DNA of 41,749 nt from an uncultured Clostridia bacterium (GTDB lineage: Bacteria; Bacillota; Clostridia; Oscillospirales; UBA644): NCBI GenBank assembly GCA_947305805.1, contig CAMZEM010000006.1, forward strand, positions 1 to 41,749, read 5' to 3'. Each line of letters starts with the position of its first letter. Within the stretch, counting starts at the first letter, position 1. The notes under the pieces are model-generated. The model was not told the DNA's origin, ran no database searches, and worked only from the letters and a program-made list of their open reading frames with translations. The translations under genes were made by a program, and so were the position numbers. This document shows, piece by piece, positions 9,601 to 32,752 of this stretch.

Positions 9601-10368
9601 TGCGGGTTCGCCCGGACGGAGCTTTCTGTAAAGTTCGAGAAGGGCGGTGGAACGGTTTGTGGAGGTGTCTTTTTCGAGCGTTGAGAGGATTCTCGGATCG
9701 TCTTCGCCGAATACTTCCTTTATCTTCTCGTCGGTGTCAATGCCGAATGCGCGGAGAAGGGTTGTAACGGGAACTTTCTTGCCTTTGTCCACTCTTACGT
9801 ATATAACGTCGTTGGCGTCGCTTTCAAATTCAACCCACGGTCCTCTGTTAGGCATAACCGTGCCGCTGAAGAGCTTGTTGCCCGCTTTGTCCATATCGTA
9901 GGCAAAGTAAACGCCGGGTGAACGGACGAGCTGTGAAACTACGACACGCTCGGCCCCGTTGATAATAAAAGTTCCGGTTTCCGTCATCAGCGGGAAGTCT
10001 CCGAAGAAAATTTCGGTTTCCTTGATATCCTGAGTCTGTGTGTTCGTAAGACGGCAGATTACTTTGAGCGGAGCGGCGTATGTGGCGTCGCGTTCCTTGC
10101 ATTCGCCGATGGTATACTTCGGTGTTTTCTCGAGTTTGTAGTCAATGTAATCGAGAACAATCGTGCCCGTATGGTCCTCAATATGCGAAGATTCTTTGAG
10201 TACGGAAGGGATTCCTTCTTCGACAAACCACTTGTAGCTGTTGAGCTGAATGTCGATAAGATTGGGAATTTCCTGCACTTCTTTGATCTTTGCGAAGTTT
10301 ACTCGCGTGTTTTTTCCGAGTTGCTCGTAATGAGCTCCGACTGTCATGGGATCGACCGTTGGGGTCAT
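6604..10368 (-). CDS. rpoB: RNA polymerase beta subunit
   Basis: 1254 aa; [67 protein letters not shown] and [38 protein letters not shown] upstream of ATG 10368. Confidence 0.98.
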
Positions 10369-10412
10369 ACGCTATCATCCTCCGTTTTATGTTTGTAAAT
10401 TTTAAAAACCAC

Positions 10413-10441
10413 TTGATTTTTTCTCCGATGTATGCTATAAT
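10413..10441 (+). promoter_or_regulatory. Candidate forward promoter toward purH, inside the rpoB leader
   Basis: TTGATT-N17-TATAAT on the plus strand. Confidence 0.5.
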
Positions 10442-10539
10442 GACATATCAGTCGGAGAACGGAACGGTATTTTTCCGTCCGCCGCGCCTCATCGGAATAT
10501 CCCGGAAAAGGGCAAAAAACGGATAAGGTGCAGATTATA

Positions 10540-10568
10540 ATTATATCATAACCAACGCAATATGTCAA
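10540..10568 (-). promoter_or_regulatory. Consensus sigma-A promoter for rpoBC
   Basis: Minus strand TTGACA-N17-TATAAT (perfect hexamers). Confidence 0.75.
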
Positions 10569-10676
10569 GCTTTCAACCCATTTTGGGGACGTGTTTTTTA
10601 AAACTGTAGCAATTAACGAAATTTTGCCAAAAACTCACCGCTTAATTGTTAAAAATATACAAACGAGGTAAAATCT

Positions 10677-12215
10677 ATGAAGAGAGCATTACTCAGTGTT
10701 TCCGATAAGACGGGAATAGTGGAATTTGCAAAAGAGCTGGCCTCTCTGGGCTACGAAATTCTGTCCACGGGCGGAACCGCCAAAGCTCTTCGCGATAACG
10801 GAATCGCCGTTACAAACGTAAGCGACGTTACCGGTTTTCCGGAGTGTCTCGACGGCCGTGTAAAAACGCTTCACCCGATGATTCATGCCGGCATACTCGC
10901 AATGAGAAGCAATCCCGAACATATGAAACAGATAAAGGAGCTCGGCGTTGAACCGATAGACATTATAGCCATAAACCTTTATCCTTTCAAGAAAACGATA
11001 CTCAAAGAGGGCACGACTTTTGAGGAAGCCGTTGAAAATATCGATATAGGCGGTCCTACAATGATTCGCGCGGCGGCAAAAAACCACCCCGACGTTGCCG
11101 TAATAGTCGACCCCGCGGATTATGCGCCGATAATTGAGCAGCTCAAAAACGGCGGAATAAGCCTTGAAGCGAAAAAAGAGCTTGCGCTTAAAGTTTTCGA
11201 GCATACTGCCGCTTACGACGCGCTTATTGCCGACTATTTCAGAAAACAGCTCGGAAAATCTCCTTTTGCGGATAACCTCACGCTTACTTTCGAAAAAGTT
11301 CAGACGATGCGTTACGGCGAAAACCCGCATCAGAACGCGGCGTTCTATAAACAGATAGGTCATTACGAAGGCACTCTTGCCGAGGCGCAGCAGCTTTCGG
11401 GCAAAGAGCTTTCCTATAATAATATTAACGATACAAACGGCGCTCTCGACCTTCTCAAAGAGTTTGAAGGAAAAACCGCGGTTGTTGCGGTAAAACACGC
11501 TAATCCCTGCGGCGTAGGCACGGGCGAAACGGTATTTGAAGCGTATATGAACGCTTACAATGCCGACCCCGTATCGATTTACGGCGGAATAGTGGCGGTA
11601 AACGCAACGGTTGACGCAAAAACAGCCGAAAAAATGCACGAGATATTCCTTGAAATAGTTATCGCTCCCGATTTTACGGAAGAGGCGGTAAAAATTCTTG
11701 CGGCAAAGCCGAATCTGAGAATTATGAAGCTTCCCGCAATAGCAAAGAGAAACACTCCCGATATGCTCGATATGAAAAAAGTTGCCGGCGGGTTGCTCGT
11801 TCAGGAGCTTGACTGTTCGCTTTACGGCGGAGAGCTTAAATGCGTAACCGACAGAGCTCCCACGGCAGAAGAGATGAAAGCGCTCGATTTCGGCTGGACT
11901 GTTGTTAAACATACAAAATCGAATGCGATAGTCCTTGCAAGGGAAAATATGACAACAGGCGTAGGCCCCGGTCAGACAAACCGCATTACCGCGCTTGAAC
12001 TCGCCGTAAAATATGCGGGAGACAAAGCGAAGGGCTCCGTGCTTGCATCCGACGCATTTTTCCCGTTTGACGACTGCGTAGACGCGGCTCACAAAGCCGG
12101 CATTACCGCAATCATTCAGCCGGGCGGATCGATAAGAGACGAAGATTCGATAAAGAAATGCAACGAATACGGCATAGCAATGGTATTTACTGGACAGCGT
12201 CATTTTAAGCATTAA
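10677..12215 (+). CDS. purH: Bifunctional AICAR formyltransferase/IMP cyclohydrolase
   Basis: [38 protein letters not shown]...; [20 protein letters not shown]; full length 512 aa; RBS gaggt. Confidence 0.97.
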
Positions 12216-18149: not shown

Positions 18150-18178
18150 TTGATTTTAAAACGGAAATATGATATACT
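18150..18178 (+). promoter_or_regulatory. Promoter of tRNA-Leu
   Basis: TTGATT-N17-TATACT about 20 bp upstream of the tRNA. Confidence 0.55.
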
Positions 18179-18199
18179 ACGCTACGTAAAATCAGATAT

Positions 18200-18286
18200 G
18201 CCGGTGTGATGGAATTGGCAGACGTCCCGGACTCAAAATCCGGTGGTAGCAATACCGTGCGGGTTCGACCCCCGCCACCGGCACCA
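18200..18286 (+). tRNA. tRNA-Leu (anticodon CAA), CCA encoded
   Basis: Acceptor GCCGGTG...CACCGGC, anticodon loop CTCAAAA, long variable arm, T-loop GGTTCGACCCC, terminal ACCA. Confidence 0.95.
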
Positions 18287-18333
18287 GATGGTATGTATTT
18301 TTTTCAAATCTAAGAAAGGAGGAGCTTAAACCA

Positions 18334-18363
18334 ATGATTAACAGAGAGGTAATTGCCGATTAA
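18334..18363 (+). other. Candidate leader uORF MINREVIAD
   Basis: AAAGGAGG Shine-Dalgarno then ATG ATT AAC AGA GAG GTA ATT GCC GAT TAA, directly followed by inverted repeats. Confidence 0.5.
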
Positions 18364-18426
18364 CCGAATATAGGCGCAGATCATGTCGGAGGGGTATGCC
18401 CCTCAGATTCGGCGCGCCGTTTTTGA
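18364..18426 (+). promoter_or_regulatory. Candidate attenuator hairpins in the leader of the GNAT/beta-lactamase gene
   Basis: CCGAAT/ATTCGG (18364-18369, 18407-18412) versus GGCGC/GCGCC (18373-18377, 18414-18418), both enclosing GAGGGG-TATG-CCCCTC; GTTTTT follows. Confidence 0.45.
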
Positions 18427-18574
18427 GTAACTTTCGAAGGGTGTGAACCGCGGAACGCAGCCACAACGGGAGCTGCTTTGCTGCGGTATTTTTGCGCCTT
18501 TTTTCGGCAGTCGGTGTAATGCCGAAACAATTCATATCATACCGAATCACATAATCAAGGAGTTAAAATATATT

Positions 18575-20062
18575 ATGATAATAAAACTGGAATCTGTAAA
18601 TGACAACAACCGGGAAGCCGTCCTGGCGCTTTCCGTGCGGGAGGATCAGCCCTTTGTCGCGCCAAACGATGTCTCCCTGCGGCAGGCGGACGAAGCTAAC
18701 GCCGAGCAGCCCGGCATTGCGAGGCCGTTTGCAATCTATGCCGATGAAAAGCTCGTCGGTTTCTGTATGTTCGCCTTCGATCCCGAGGAAGAGGATGAGG
18801 ACGACCGCTACTGGCTCTGGCGTTTTATGATAGACAAAAACGAGCAGGGCAAGGGATACGGCCAGGCCGCCCTGCAGGAGATCATCAGGTATTTCAAGGA
18901 AAACGGCGCTGACCGTCTTTTCCTGTCCACCGAGCCGGAGAACGAGCTCGGTCTGCATATCTATCACAAGGCGGGTTTCCGCGAGACCGGAATGATCGAC
19001 GGCGGCGAGGCCGTGCTGATGCGGATGCTCAAAGGCCCCAACCGAATCATCAAGAACATCTACGGCGTCGATGTGGATAATGCCATGCGCATCAGGGGCG
19101 GAAAGGGCTACGGCGTCAGCATCGCGGTTCAGGACGCAGACGGAGATTTCCTCACCTACTGCGCCGGCAGCGGCAGATACGGAGAAGACTTTCCGGTGAA
19201 CCCGGATATGATATTCCAGGCGGGTTCCGTATCAAAACCCATGTTTGCGCTGACGCTTCTAAGATATGTTGACAAAGGCGTCATAGACATGGATGCGGAT
19301 ATCTCGGGCGTCGTTCCGGAATACGCAAAGAGTCCGCTGACATTTTCCGCCCTGCTCAGCCATACCGCGGGCTATAACCTGCACGGTTTTCCCGGATACC
19401 CTGCAAATCATGAGCCGCTTTCCTTGGAGGACGTGCTGAACGGAAAAGGCAATACGCCTAAACTGCGCAGAATACGCCCCTACGGCAAACAGCACATGTA
19501 TTCCGGAGGCGGCATCACGCTGGCGCAGCTCGCTTTTGAGCGCATTACCGGCACGACCCTCCGCGAGGCCTTTCAAAAAGAGGTCGCCGAGCCTTTGGGT
19601 CTTAAACGCACCGGATTTTTCCAGCCGCTTGACGAAGAACTTGTCTCCAACGCCGCGTTCGGATGGAGACTTGCACAGAAAGAGGATCCCGCTCACGGTT
19701 ATCACTATTATCCCGAGCAAGCCGCGGCAGGTCTTTGGACCACGCCAACGGAGCTTGTAAAAATCGGGCTTGAGCTGTCGAAGAGCTATCGCAAAGGCGG
19801 CCTTCTGAAGAAAAAGACAGCACGCCGCATGATGATGCCGGTTATGGATGACTACGGGCTTTGTCTTAACGTATGGGAATCGGAAGCGCGGAAAGACAGC
19901 GTTGCAGGCCACGGCGGAGAGAACTGGGGCTTTCTGACAAACTGGGTCTTCTCCCGCAAAAAAGATATCTGCGTTGCCGTGATGTACAACAATGTCACGA
20001 GAAGCGCTGACGAAGCGATGGATAAAATCGCATGCGAGATTTATAAAAACGCAAAAGAGTAA
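18575..20062 (+). CDS. GNAT N-acetyltransferase fused to a class C beta-lactamase-like serine hydrolase
   Basis: N-terminal GNAT (DDRYWLWRFMIDKNEQGKGYGQAALQEIIRYF...LHIYHKAGFRETG); C-terminal SxxK motif AGSVSKPMFALTLL, LLSHTAGYNLHG, YSGGGITLAQLAFERITG, GHGGENWGF. Start ATG 18575. Confidence 0.85.
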   Translation: MIIKLESVNDNNREAVLALSVREDQPFVAPNDVSLRQADEANAEQPGIARPFAIYADEKLVGFCMFAFDPEEEDEDDRYWLWRFMIDKNEQGKGYGQAALQEIIRYFKENGADRLFLSTEPENELGLHIYHKAGFRETGMIDGGEAVLMRMLKGPNRIIKNIYGVDVDNAMRIRGGKGYGVSIAVQDADGDFLTYCAGSGRYGEDFPVNPDMIFQAGSVSKPMFALTLLRYVDKGVIDMDADISGVVPEYAKSPLTFSALLSHTAGYNLHGFPGYPANHEPLSLEDVLNGKGNTPKLRRIRPYGKQHMYSGGGITLAQLAFERITGTTLREAFQKEVAEPLGLKRTGFFQPLDEELVSNAAFGWRLAQKEDPAHGYHYYPEQAAAGLWTTPTELVKIGLELSKSYRKGGLLKKKTARRMMMPVMDDYGLCLNVWESEARKDSVAGHGGENWGFLTNWVFSRKKDICVAVMYNNVTRSADEAMDKIACEIYKNAKE

Positions 20063-20078
20063 ATACTCTCTTTAATAA

Positions 20079-20118
20079 ACACCGACCGGTTGTTTTATGC
20101 AGCCGGCCGGTGTTTTCT
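20079..20118 (+). terminator. Intrinsic terminator after the fusion gene
   Basis: ACACCGaCCGG ... CCGGcCGGTGT followed by TTTTC. Confidence 0.7.
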
Positions 20119-25518: not shown

Positions 25519-26337
25519 TTATCCCTCACCGCTTTCCCGTTTTTTGCATATGTCAACTATAAATTCCGTTTCGGTTTCCGCGCACGGCAGGCGCATCGCT
25601 TTTTCGATTCTGTCTTTCGGCGTGCGGTAAAAATACGGAGTCATCGATATGAGATCGCAGAGCGAAGCGTTGTCAAGAGTAACCTTTTTTGAGATCTTTT
25701 TTGAAGATATAATCTCAAAAGCGTCGGAAAGCCCTGAATTTTCGTCGTTTTGCCTCGGCTCGCCGTATAAAATGCGTTTTATGCCCATAAGGTGGTCTTT
25801 GCCGGGAAAAACGTGTATAAAAACGCCGTCGGGGGCAAGAATACGCAGAAACTCCCTTTCATTTACCGGCGCAAATATATGCAAAAGAATATCCGCGGAA
25901 CCGTCTTTTACGGGAACCGACGAGATATTCGCAACAAAAAACAGCGCTTTTCGGGAATCTTTCGCCGCATATCGAAGAGCTCTTTTTGAAAGATCGAAGC
26001 CGTAAAACGACGCCTCTGAAAACTCTTGCTGAAGTGCGTTTGTAAAATATCCCTCGCCGCAGCACGCGTCTATAACGGTGAAATGCGGATGAACGGATTC
26101 TTTAAGCGTGTCTTTCAGTCCGCAAAGAAGATGCGAATAATGACCTTTTGCAAGAAAGCGTTTTCTTGCGGACGCCATTTCGGCGCCGTCTCCCGCGCCG
26201 GCGGAACCGTTGAGAATAAGATTTACGCTTCCCTCTTTCGAACGGTCAAAAGAGTGTCCGTTTTTGCAGAAAGCGTTCTTTTCCGCAAATTGCAACGGGT
26301 AGCCGCATACGGGACAGATAATCGGACAGTCTGTCAT
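25519..26337 (-). CDS. RlmA-like 23S rRNA (guanine-N1)-methyltransferase
   Basis: Zn-binding CPVCGYPLQF...CKNGHSFDRSKEGSVNLIL, VIDACCGEGYFTNALQ, HIFAPVNEREFLRILAPDGVFIHVFPGKDHL. Confidence 0.85.
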   Translation of the reverse strand: MTDCPIICPVCGYPLQFAEKNAFCKNGHSFDRSKEGSVNLILNGSAGAGDGAEMASARKRFLAKGHYSHLLCGLKDTLKESVHPHFTVIDACCGEGYFTNALQQEFSEASFYGFDLSKRALRYAAKDSRKALFFVANISSVPVKDGSADILLHIFAPVNEREFLRILAPDGVFIHVFPGKDHLMGIKRILYGEPRQNDENSGLSDAFEIISSKKISKKVTLDNASLCDLISMTPYFYRTPKDRIEKAMRLPCAETETEFIVDICKKRESGEG

Positions 26338-29125: not shown

Positions 29126-32100
29126 ATGAAACACAGATTTCATAAGATTACTGCGTTACTCCTCGCAGCCGCAATGCTGGTTGCATTTCTGGCAGCGTGC
29201 GGAGAAGAACCGGTAGACCTTCAGTCGGTTTACAAATTCTCCGAAACAGCAGTAACTCTTAACGCAGGCGAAAACTACGCTCTGCTTATTTACGACGATA
29301 CATACAGCGACAGATCGTATACCGCCGTATGGTCATCCAATAACCCTGCGGCAGTCTCCGTAGAACAGAGCGGATTTATCACGGCTCTTGCGGCAGGCAC
29401 AGCCACGGTTACGGCAAACCTTCATTTTGACAAGGAAAACCAGGACGTAACCCTTAACTGCGCAATAACGGTTCTTGAAACGAACATCGCCGTTACGGGC
29501 GTATCCATAAACGCAATGGAACAGACCCTTGACGTAGGCGGCGTTACCGTTTTAACTCCGACCGTCCTTCCCGCAGACGCAACAAACAAAGCCGTCAGCT
29601 GGACCACTTCCGATCCGTCGGTTGCAATAGTTTCTTCCGGCGTTGTTACCGCTGTCGGCGCAGGTACCGCAATAGTAACCGCAGTTACCGATGACGGCGG
29701 CAAAACGGCAGACTGCATAATCACCGTAAACACTCCCGTAGATACGTTTGAAAGTCTTACGCTCAACAAAACGTCCGTATCCGTTGCGGTAGGCAAGACA
29801 ACCTCGCTTACGGCTACAATCAAGCCTACGGGTATTGCAGCAGACATTATCTGGACGAGCGCGGACGAATCGATAGCAACCGTGCTTAACGGCACCATCA
29901 CGGGCGTTAAAGCCGGTACCACAACGATTACCGCTACATTAAACGACAAGGTTACAAACAAAGTCGCAACATGTAAAGTAACCGTAACGTCCTCAACATC
30001 GTCAACGTCATCCGGTTCGTCTTCTTCCGGAAACTCCGGATCGTCTTCTTCCGGCAACTCCGGTTCTTCCGGTTCTTCTTCGGGCACATCCACTACCGTA
30101 AAGGCAACGAGCGTTAAATTCGACGTTCAGTCCATGACCGTTTACGTAGGCCAGAAAGGTCCGTGGAAATTCAACCCGACCGTTACCCCCGCAAACACAA
30201 CCGAAAAAGGCACATGGACATCCAACAACCCGTCCGTTGCTGCGGTTGACTCAGAGGGTAACATCACAATCGGCGATATCGGTTCAAGCTATTTTGAAAT
30301 GGCAACAATAACCTACACCGTCGGCTCCAAGTCGGCAAGCGGCGTTGTAGTTGTTATGGCTGCAAGCTCCAACCCGAATCCCGAAAACAACGAAACCGAA
30401 AATCAGCAGGGTGAAAACCAGACTCCTTCCGAAAACACAAATCCGAATGAGAATGAGCAGACACCTTCCGAAAATACCGAAACACAGACTCCGTCAACCG
30501 GCGAAAAAGCAGTTACTTCTCTTATTCTTGCAGAAGACACTGCAACAATCAACGTAGGTCAGGCATATGCGATTGAATTTGACGCATATCCGAAGGACGC
30601 TGTGGGAACTTACACCTGGTTAAGCGCAAACGAAGCGATTGCAACGGTTACCGCTTCCGGCGTAGTAACAGGTCAGGCGGTAGGTGAAACCACCGTAACC
30701 GTTACCGAAACGAAGTCCGGCATTTCTCAGACGTGCAAAGTAGTCGTTAAACTTAAAGAGGCCGAATCGGTAACGCTTTCCAACGCAAACGTAACGCTTC
30801 CGCTCGGTCAGACGTATACTCTTTACGCTACCGTAACTCCGGACGACACATCCGAAACATTAACCTGGACATCCCAGTATCCGGAAATTGTTTCCGTATC
30901 TCCTCTTGCGGACGGCAAATCCGCTCTTATCGCATCGCTGCAGAGCGGCACGGTAGTTATAACTGCAAGCACACCGAGCGGCAAGAAAGCAGAATGCACC
31001 GTAGCTTCCGGCGTAACCGGTTATGACTCGGGCGACGTAACACAGCAGGTTTCGTCTAAAATCAAGGTAAGCGTTGTAGTAATCGCAAGCGGAGACCTTG
31101 AACAGGGCAATGCATATTCCGCATACCTCACGTTCTCTCCCGCGCTTTCCACCGCGCAGCAGGCAACGCTTATGTATGCAATAAGCACTCAGGACAATAC
31201 CGTAGCAATTACAAGAACATCGGCAAACGACTACACGAAAAACAGCTTCACAATCACCCCGACCGTCGCTGCGGGTTCCGCAACTCTGACGGGATTTGTA
31301 AGCTCTTCCGACGCATCATTGCAGTTTGAATACGAGCCGAAGACGGTTTCGATTCTTTCTCCCTCGGCGGATATAAAGACACCTATTAAATCTCTTACAA
31401 TGAGTCCCACATCCCTGTCGCTTTACTCCAAAGCTACTTCGGTTATAGCCGTTACTCCCACACCGTCCAACAATGACGATGAATTAACATGGTTCTCTTC
31501 CAATGAGTCGGTAGCAAAAGTTGTAGGCAACAAGTTCAGCGCAACCGTTATCGCGGTAGGCGCGGGAACTGCCACTATCACAGCAAAAACACGCGGAAAT
31601 CTTACCACAAACAAGGTAACCGCTACATGCAGAGTAACTGTAAGTGCAACCGGATCTGTTGATACAGGCAGAAGTGTTATCGGTGTAATGCAGGGCTCAA
31701 CATATCAGCCTACAAATGCAGACATCGGAGCGACCGGTTCGTTTGCTATGAGTCCCACATGGACACCTGGCAGCGTGTTTGTTTCCGGCGGAACGGATAA
31801 TTCATACGCACTGACCATTGACAAAAACGGTCTTATTACCATTGGCGACAATGTTCCCATCGGCACTACTCTTGCAACATCCGTAAGCTACGCCATTGCA
31901 AACGCAGGCACACTCGTTCAGAAAGACTTTACCATTATGGTAATTAACGCCAAGGCAACAGGATCAACCACCTCTGCTCCGACAGTAACGATGAATGTCT
32001 CCGTTGGCGACATCGGTGATTTCAGCAACTATCCCGGAACATACTATACCTCGGATAATCCTCAAGTTGTCAGAATTAATAATAGTACATGGTATGCGGA

Positions 32101-32752
32101 AAAAGCAGGTACCACAAGTATTCATATCTATGACAAAGATGGCGACGGCAAGGTTGAATTGATTACTGTTAAATTCGTAGTCGGCAACCCTGTTATCGAA
32201 AAAACGATTAATGTAGATGAACTCATTCAGATTGCGGATATTTCCGAATTAAGCGGAAAAACAATTAAGGGAATCTCTTCAAGCAGTAGCTCAAGAGTAT
32301 CCGTTTCATCTGTTAACGGACAGTATGTTTTAAAGGGAGAATCAGGCGGTTCTGCCGATGTAACAGTTACTTTAGGCGATGATTCACAATATATTATCAG
32401 AGTAACTGTAAGATCTTCATCAAGTTCAGGAAGTTCAAGTTCAACAACCACCTCTCCAAAACTTTCCCTTAGTCCCTCTTCTTCTGTAAAAGGAGGAAGC
32501 GAGGTTAAAGCAACCCTGTCTAATTTAAACAGTATGCATCGGGATATTCTGTGGAAGATCACTGGTTCAGGTGCAACGTTTGAGGGAGGGGTAAAAGAGA
32601 TCTCTTATTCTGCAACAGTATTGACAAAAGAAGAAGTAATTGTTTATACTGCTGATGTAACAGAGGAAACAGTAGTTAAAATTGAAGCATATTATAAAAC
32701 TTCCGAATCTAAAATTGGTGAGATAACTCTTACAATCAAACCTCAGTCTTAA
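29126..32752 (+). CDS. Large surface lipoprotein with multiple bacterial Ig-like (Big_2) domains
   Basis: Signal and lipobox LVAFLAACGEE; repeated modules such as VSINAMEQTLDVGGVTVLTPTVLPADATNKAVSWTTSDPSVAIVSSGVVTAVGAGTAIVTA; Ser/Gly and Pro/Glu/Asn/Thr linkers; RBS AAAGGTGG. Confidence 0.9.
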   Translation: MKHRFHKITALLLAAAMLVAFLAACGEEPVDLQSVYKFSETAVTLNAGENYALLIYDDTYSDRSYTAVWSSNNPAAVSVEQSGFITALAAGTATVTANLHFDKENQDVTLNCAITVLETNIAVTGVSINAMEQTLDVGGVTVLTPTVLPADATNKAVSWTTSDPSVAIVSSGVVTAVGAGTAIVTAVTDDGGKTADCIITVNTPVDTFESLTLNKTSVSVAVGKTTSLTATIKPTGIAADIIWTSADESIATVLNGTITGVKAGTTTITATLNDKVTNKVATCKVTVTSSTSSTSSGSSSSGNSGSSSSGNSGSSGSSSGTSTTVKATSVKFDVQSMTVYVGQKGPWKFNPTVTPANTTEKGTWTSNNPSVAAVDSEGNITIGDIGSSYFEMATITYTVGSKSASGVVVVMAASSNPNPENNETENQQGENQTPSENTNPNENEQTPSENTETQTPSTGEKAVTSLILAEDTATINVGQAYAIEFDAYPKDAVGTYTWLSANEAIATVTASGVVTGQAVGETTVTVTETKSGISQTCKVVVKLKEAESVTLSNANVTLPLGQTYTLYATVTPDDTSETLTWTSQYPEIVSVSPLADGKSALIASLQSGTVVITASTPSGKKAECTVASGVTGYDSGDVTQQVSSKIKVSVVVIASGDLEQGNAYSAYLTFSPALSTAQQATLMYAISTQDNTVAITRTSANDYTKNSFTITPTVAAGSATLTGFVSSSDASLQFEYEPKTVSILSPSADIKTPIKSLTMSPTSLSLYSKATSVIAVTPTPSNNDDELTWFSSNESVAKVVGNKFSATVIAVGAGTATITAKTRGNLTTNKVTATCRVTVSATGSVDTGRSVIGVMQGSTYQPTNADIGATGSFAMSPTWTPGSVFVSGGTDNSYALTIDKNGLITIGDNVPIGTTLATSVSYAIANAGTLVQKDFTIMVINAKATGSTTSAPTVTMNVSVGDIGDFSNYPGTYYTSDNPQVVRINNSTWYAEKAGTTSIHIYDKDGDGKVELITVKFVVGNPVIEKTINVDELIQIADISELSGKTIKGISSSSSSRVSVSSVNGQYVLKGESGGSADVTVTLGDDSQYIIRVTVRSSSSSGSSSSTTTSPKLSLSPSSSVKGGSEVKATLSNLNSMHRDILWKITGSGATFEGGVKEISYSATVLTKEEVIVYTADVTEETVVKIEAYYKTSESKIGEITLTIKPQS
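30014..30080 (+). repeat. Short tandem repeat in the Ser/Gly linker (about 24-bp unit)
   Basis: GGTTCGTCTTCTTCCGGAAACTCC then GGATCGTCTTCTTCCGGCAACTCC then a degenerate third copy. Confidence 0.7.

Follow-up and report, generated by a model that had tools for sequence, protein, structure and literature searches.

A conserved GNAT–serine hydrolase fusion of ruminant-gut Clostridia and its candidate attenuator leader

Introduction

What is the function of a single protein that joins a GNAT acetyltransferase to an S12-type serine hydrolase, and how is the gene for such a protein controlled? The question is raised by a locus in a 41,749-nucleotide stretch of DNA (contig CAMZEM010000006.1, hereafter the window) from an uncultured Clostridia bacterium. 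The window is chromosomal, as judged by the presence of rpoB, purH, the RNase P RNA, and a phosphoglycerate mutase gene, and the fusion gene is solitary in it, with a tRNA-Leu on one side and a terminator-like hairpin (20086–20106, forward strand, called by consensus scan only) on the other. A leader RNA of ~210 nt between the tRNA and the fusion gene, absent from the preliminary description of this DNA and noticed only in the follow-up, turned out to carry much of the argument below.

The fusion gene and its domains

The gene spans positions 18575–20062 of the forward strand as a single stop-free ORF whose translation is 495 amino acids long, with the GNAT domain at about residues 1–153 and the hydrolase at about residues 165–490. 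The reading frame is already open from a GTG at 18443; the start is placed at the ATG at 18575, which is preceded by a Shine–Dalgarno sequence (SD), AAGGAG, at 18557–18562, and at which the homologues also begin. Pfam assigns PF00583 to residues 45–135 (E = 1.6e-16; 61 bits against a gathering cut-off of 20.7) and PF00144 to residues 181–483 (E = 4.1e-37; 128.5 bits against a cut-off of 27), and each half searched singly received the same assignment as in the whole protein. Beyond the scores, the GNAT half has the acetyl-CoA motif Q/RxxGxG/A (Q91-G-K-G-Y-G96), and the hydrolase half has the SxxK motif (S218-V-S-K221), the tyrosine motif (Y309-S-G311), and a third motif of the (K/H)xG type (H446-G-G448). 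Thus, the preliminary description was right to read one continuous ORF with a GNAT domain and a PF00144-type serine hydrolase, and the motifs it named (QGKGYG, SVSK, YSG, and the one around HGG) are all present; no stop or frameshift was found between the two domains, and neither half was assigned elsewhere. Its remark that codon usage is unlike that of the neighbors also holds because GC3 is 65.7% in the fusion gene (overall GC 54.8%) versus 50–56% in five flanking genes.

A scan of species genomes for the same fusion, as the preliminary description had proposed, found relatives encoded in 170 candidate stretches, nearly all from MAGs of ruminant-gut Clostridia. The best 80 of the 170 cover approximately the whole protein, mostly at 71–91% identity, and, to judge by their titles, almost all derive from gut metagenomes of goats, sheep, buffalo, or cattle. 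No internal stop was found in the 70 full-length copies examined (71 aligned copies), and 144 residues are invariant over the 71 sequences; these include, in the acetyl-CoA loop, Q91, G94, and G96 and, in the hydrolase, S218, K221, Y309, G311, H446, and G448. Between the window's fusion and four close copies, dN is 0.05–0.06 and dS ~1.0–1.25, the halves being alike, with a dN/dS of ~0.05 in each. The lack of internal stops, the invariant active sites, and the low dN/dS together indicate that purifying selection acts jointly on both predicted activities. It is nearly certain that the fusion is real and conserved; an assembly chimera or a chance joining was rejected, as full-length copies, at up to ~90% identity, recur in independent genomes whose flanking DNA is unrelated. 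No account of such a GNAT–S12 fusion turned up in the literature searched, in keeping with the earlier statement that no characterized protein has this exact arrangement.

Two apparent variants of the fusion were discarded. A second, distant fusion at locus L053 is really a GNAT gene followed by an adjacent S12 gene, in that unfused order and with a stop between them, and insertions of ~600 bp seen in some loci were neighboring GNAT or hydrolase genes merged into one match.

Distribution and lateral spread

When the window was compared with the 80 loci by blastn, similarity extended from ~18290–18600 to the stop codon at 20062, with almost nothing beyond: the shared DNA consists of the leader and the fusion gene, and the flanks of the 80 loci are unrelated. 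Within its own genus, 2 of 10 genomes hold the fusion (this genome counted); none of 10 genomes from other genera of the same family does, and in the class the figure is 2 of 391 genomes. A genome from a different class has a near-consensus leader followed by the start of a fusion (L119), on a contig of only ~1.9 kb for which misbinning is possible, whereas the other copies lie on contigs of 100–640 kb. Because homology ends sharply and presence is patchy, the fusion has very likely spread laterally, an argument made from these boundaries and this patchiness rather than from the taxonomic labels of the MAGs, which are coarse. The horizontal acquisition proposed on first reading is thereby supported by the unrelated flanks as well. 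Carriage by phages or plasmids was considered and rejected: viral contigs yielded neither the fusion protein nor the terminator motif, none of the plasmid and phage records covered 80% of the fusion protein, and the leader was not found in plasmids. PADLOC returned weak matches only.

The contig of L076 holds a full fusion copy (74% identity) and, at 10217–10789, a truncated second fragment covering residues 304–494 with 93% identity to the window; the fragment beside the full copy is a sign of repeated acquisition.

The leader RNA

The conserved leader region (18290–18520, forward strand), which moves with the gene, was delimited by blastn against the 80 loci and scores 144.9 bits with a covariance model, R1. 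It directly follows the tRNA-Leu (caa) at 18200–18286 (forward strand), identified by ARAGORN and Rfam, and in three other loci a tRNA (Ser, Ser, and Arg) likewise lies within ~400 nt of the leader. R1 recognizes the leader in 42 of the 80 loci, one weaker match counted, immediately ahead of the fusion or ahead of a different upstream gene, often a GNAT or hydrolase gene that heads the operon. The order of elements is an SD, a small upstream ORF (uORF), a 6-bp helix P1, a hairpin P2, the element ATAGTGGGAACCGCAG, a strong terminator, a T-run, and GYRCC. In the window, all on the forward strand, the predicted uORF MINREVIAD* occupies 18334–18363 behind the SD AGGAGGAG at 18317–18324; P1 (18373–18378 with 18413–18418) encloses P2 (18389–18394 with 18399–18404), as read from pair counts over 18373–18418; and the intrinsic terminator at 18447–18487, in which 98% of cells are paired in 36 leaders, is followed by a T-run at 18489–18493 and by GCGCC at 18494–18498.

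A predicted uORF with an SD and an ATG or GTG start is found in 49 leaders (45 distinct), mostly with 6–11 codons and with 15 at most, and its stop lies just before a conserved ACTGAAT; one further leader (L064) has no start codon at this position. The peptides are variable and not rich in one amino acid, and no known stalling motif was seen in them. Over the 36 leaders, 91.6% of the cells counted are paired (slid controls, 32–61%), and there are 19 two-sided changes versus 11 in shuffles; of the 500 shuffles, which ignore the relatedness of the sequences, 1 attained the observed covariation score. The combination of a uORF that has a ribosome-binding site with an intrinsic terminator before the gene suggests that the leader is probably of the attenuator type. 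In such attenuators, normal translation of the uORF leads to a stop, and a stalled ribosome leads to read-through (PMC5418344, PMC6310831). When 38 leaders were folded at equilibrium, either free or with the ribosome footprint blocked, no antiterminator was found and the mean probability of the terminator stayed at 0.97 or above; switching may be kinetic.

Several more specific identities of the leader were examined and set aside. No Rfam leader family, the T-box included, matched at E up to 1 in 18150–18650, where Rfam found the tRNA itself and a sub-threshold tmRNA match, and the T-box reading of the stretch GGGTGTGAACCGCGG was dropped accordingly. A housekeeping leader does not fit the single copy in this genome; a specific stalling peptide is not supported, as variability at third positions of the uORF does not clearly exceed that at the first two; and a long-range pairing between the SD and CUUUC did not convincingly exceed swapped controls.

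Possible kinship with tetracycline-resistance leaders

Leaders of tet ribosomal-protection genes (tet_protect, NF012153) resemble those of the fusion. Most of these loci have an SD, a tiny uORF, AGTGGGAAC, a terminator, and the tail TTTTTTGTACCC (TTTTTGYRCC) in the same order as the fusion leader, from which they differ in the uORF peptide, MRQGILK, and in the terminator sequence. A bipartite motif, AGTGGGAAC-N25-55-TTTTTGYRCC, chosen after both leader sets had been seen, has 19 matches in 291 genomes of the class, 17 of them at tet ribosomal-protection leaders, and none in reversed controls; of the 80 fusion loci, 10 contain it, in each case precisely at the leader, and their 917 kb hold no other copy. 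In the window, the leader has diverged (GTGTGAACC) and lacks an exact match. The full R1 model gives E-values of 0.07–0.5 on the tet leaders, which are not significant. Since the motif was picked post hoc and R1 does not reach significance, common descent of the fusion and tet leaders is plausible but unproven. Attenuation of tet(M) itself was reportedly described by Su et al. in 1992.

The uORF MRQGILK is near-invariant at the tet genes (L108–L114, L116, L117, L124–L127, and L129–L141), the one deviation being MQQGILK in L135, and the peptide was not found in print in the literature searched.

Leaders recognized by R1 also precede a different GNAT gene (L095), an M29 aminopeptidase gene (L101), and genes encoding RsgA GTPases (L100 and L102), in genomes that also hold the fusion. 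Remoter leaders lie before RsgA in other families (L104–L106; per-genome E-values of 8e-5 to 5e-6) and, elsewhere in the phylum, before RsgA (L120 and L122, the latter locus at about 1200–1850) or a GNAT (L121), with E-values of 4e-4 to 8e-4; all six contain a uORF. One genome (G028) has three leader copies at three places, which looks like a small regulon. HflXr is controlled by a uORF attenuator (PMC6310831), and by analogy the RsgA genes behind uORF–terminator leaders suggest inducible RsgA paralogues comparable to it.

A gene of the Mor family (PF08765; ~110 aa) lies just 5' of the fusion in eight loci, none with a leader match, for instance at L018:5595–5927, L033:5660–6004, L040:2658–2960, L058:5592–5927, and L060:5707–5982; its product is perhaps an alternative regulator.

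Operon partners

Counting as partners the genes on the same strand within 400 nt of the fusion, we found a separate S12 hydrolase in 44 of the 80 loci, a GNAT related to the N-terminal half of the fusion (c2) in 20, and a second GNAT type (c5, PF12746) in 18. Double GNAT partners occur in 10 loci, M3 oligoendopeptidases in 7, and M29 peptidases in 3. Compared with the corresponding halves of the fusion, the separate GNAT and S12 proteins show identities of only ~34% and ~29%, respectively; the fusion is therefore not a recent joining of its neighbors.

An S12 hydrolase (L043:2207–3583) and a PF12746 GNAT (L053:7492–8517) share a C-terminal domain of ~93 aa (40% identity, E = 6e-17) that matches no Pfam model and is possibly a substrate- or partner-binding module.

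Proposed function and competing readings

The N-terminus of the fusion, MIIKLESVNDNNREAV, is predicted to form the first strand of the GNAT domain and lacks a hydrophobic segment, which would speak against export. Because the GNAT domain is N-terminal and depends on acetyl-CoA, and no export signal is evident, the enzyme is expected to be cytoplasmic. About half of the copies lie behind such a leader, which resembles the tetracycline-resistance switch, and this resemblance suggests that the fusion probably disarms a natural antibiotic that blocks protein synthesis; defense against a translation-targeting compound stands, in our judgment, at roughly even. In the mechanism we propose, the leader would attenuate transcription by sensing the ribosome, in the manner of tet ribosomal-protection genes. 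By default, transcription would end at the leader terminator; disturbed translation of the uORF would allow read-through into the fusion gene, and in the cytoplasm the enzyme would then inactivate an amino-bearing translation inhibitor of the peptide or aminoacyl type, both by acetylation of the amino group and by cleavage of an amide or ester bond. We are evenly divided on whether the fusion is such a laterally spread, attenuator-controlled detoxification module, a reading drawn from sequence comparison.

There is a precedent for the chemistry in microcin C, a cytosolic, translation-blocking aminoacyl-nucleotide once processed, of which MccE2 acetylates the amino group and MccF cleaves the amide bond (PMC9239234). 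The likeness is one of function and not of family: MccE2, a GNAT, and MccF are separate proteins, unlike the two halves of the fusion, for which no membership is claimed. MccF is an L,D-carboxypeptidase rather than an S12/PF00144 enzyme.

If the detoxification module is real, it would be an unrecognized, laterally spreading, and probably drug-inducible inactivation enzyme in gut bacteria of livestock (cattle, sheep, and goats), and the compound that opens the leader terminator would point to what the enzyme acts on in nature, which may be a rumen antibiotic of a new class. RsgA paralogues would also be connected with inducible ribosome stress, much as HflXr connected HflX with it. A broader version, which we put forward tentatively and hold at somewhat less than even, is that a family of ribosome-sensing attenuators, kin to the tet leaders and missing from Rfam, governs a mobile set of GNAT and S12-peptidase enzymes, bifunctional or clustered, together with RsgA paralogues, as a defense of rumen bacteria against an undescribed peptide-type translation inhibitor, the fusion acetylating and cutting the same drug.

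Structural comparison lends some weight to a metabolic enzyme, which would scavenge or recycle D-amino-acid peptides or amines of the diet or cell walls under a leader that senses amino-acid starvation. Foldseek searches with an AlphaFold model (mean pLDDT 75, pTM 0.65), carried out along with the domain searches as first proposed, placed the Lip3 DL-peptidase, a D-stereospecific hydrolase, and alkaline D-peptidase ahead of AmpC, with E-values that lie close together. The Bacillus alkaline D-peptidase and D-stereospecific hydrolase (4y7p/9s7k), Lip3 (9sn1), and the R61 DD-peptidase (1hvb) share with the fusion the S12/PF00144 fold and SxxK, but they are only ~20–22% identical to it and lack a GNAT domain. 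Similarly, the best matches of the GNAT half among solved structures are spermine/spermidine acetyltransferases of the BltD type (2fl4 and 9dsb; E = 1e-12), stand-alone enzymes of low identity whose substrate is not transferable. The M3 and M29 peptidases among the partners, and a habitat presumably rich in peptides, also suit a metabolic role. We consider such a role possible, if rather unlikely: the patchy, lateral distribution, the clusters of several GNATs, the motif common to tet leaders, and RsgA under related leaders fit a response to stress or drugs better, and the uORFs, as noted above, are not rich in any single amino acid.

Alternatively, the leader could be an ordinary uORF and terminator, a passenger of the cassette that is silent on the substrate, with an enzyme that modifies a ribosome-associated protein or peptide through a RimI-like GNAT. 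A weak resemblance of the GNAT half to RimI (40 bits versus 86), RsgA under related leaders, and the equilibrium folding without an antiterminator agree with this, but strong conservation and covariation of the leader amid unrelated flanks argue for regulation, and we regard the passenger reading as improbable.

A dual resistance enzyme combining a class C beta-lactamase with an aminoglycoside-type acetyltransferase, as the first reading implied, finds the PF00144 fold with SVSK, YSG, and HGG and AmpC structures among the Foldseek matches in its favor but is very improbable, given scores of 26.3–27.8 bits for class C beta-lactamases (NF033085, cut-off 415), 20.8–24 for AAC(6') (cut-off 250), and 21.8 for streptothricin acetyltransferase (STAT, cut-off 420), HGG in place of KTG and YSG in place of YxN, and no evident signal peptide, whereas beta-lactams act outside the membrane. 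The GNAT half exceeded the cut-off of no curated resistance acetyltransferase. Thus, of the label "class C beta-lactamase-like", the PF00144 serine hydrolase stands and the class C assignment does not, the fold being nearer to D-peptidases; the idea of two activities, potentially directed at antibiotics or peptides, survives without that class: both active sites are kept, and the leader RNA and the operon partners, neither of them part of the first reading, lend it independent support. With an N-terminal GNAT, no evident export signal, and a low class C score, hydrolysis of nitrocefin is therefore not the first expectation for the fusion.

Two other genes of the window, neither of them a partner of the fusion, deserve mention. 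An RlmA-like 23S rRNA methyltransferase, with a zinc ribbon and a methyltransferase domain, is encoded at 25522–26337 on the reverse strand, and a large protein with six Big_2 immunoglobulin-like repeats, encoded at 29126–32752 on the forward strand, is probably located at the cell surface.
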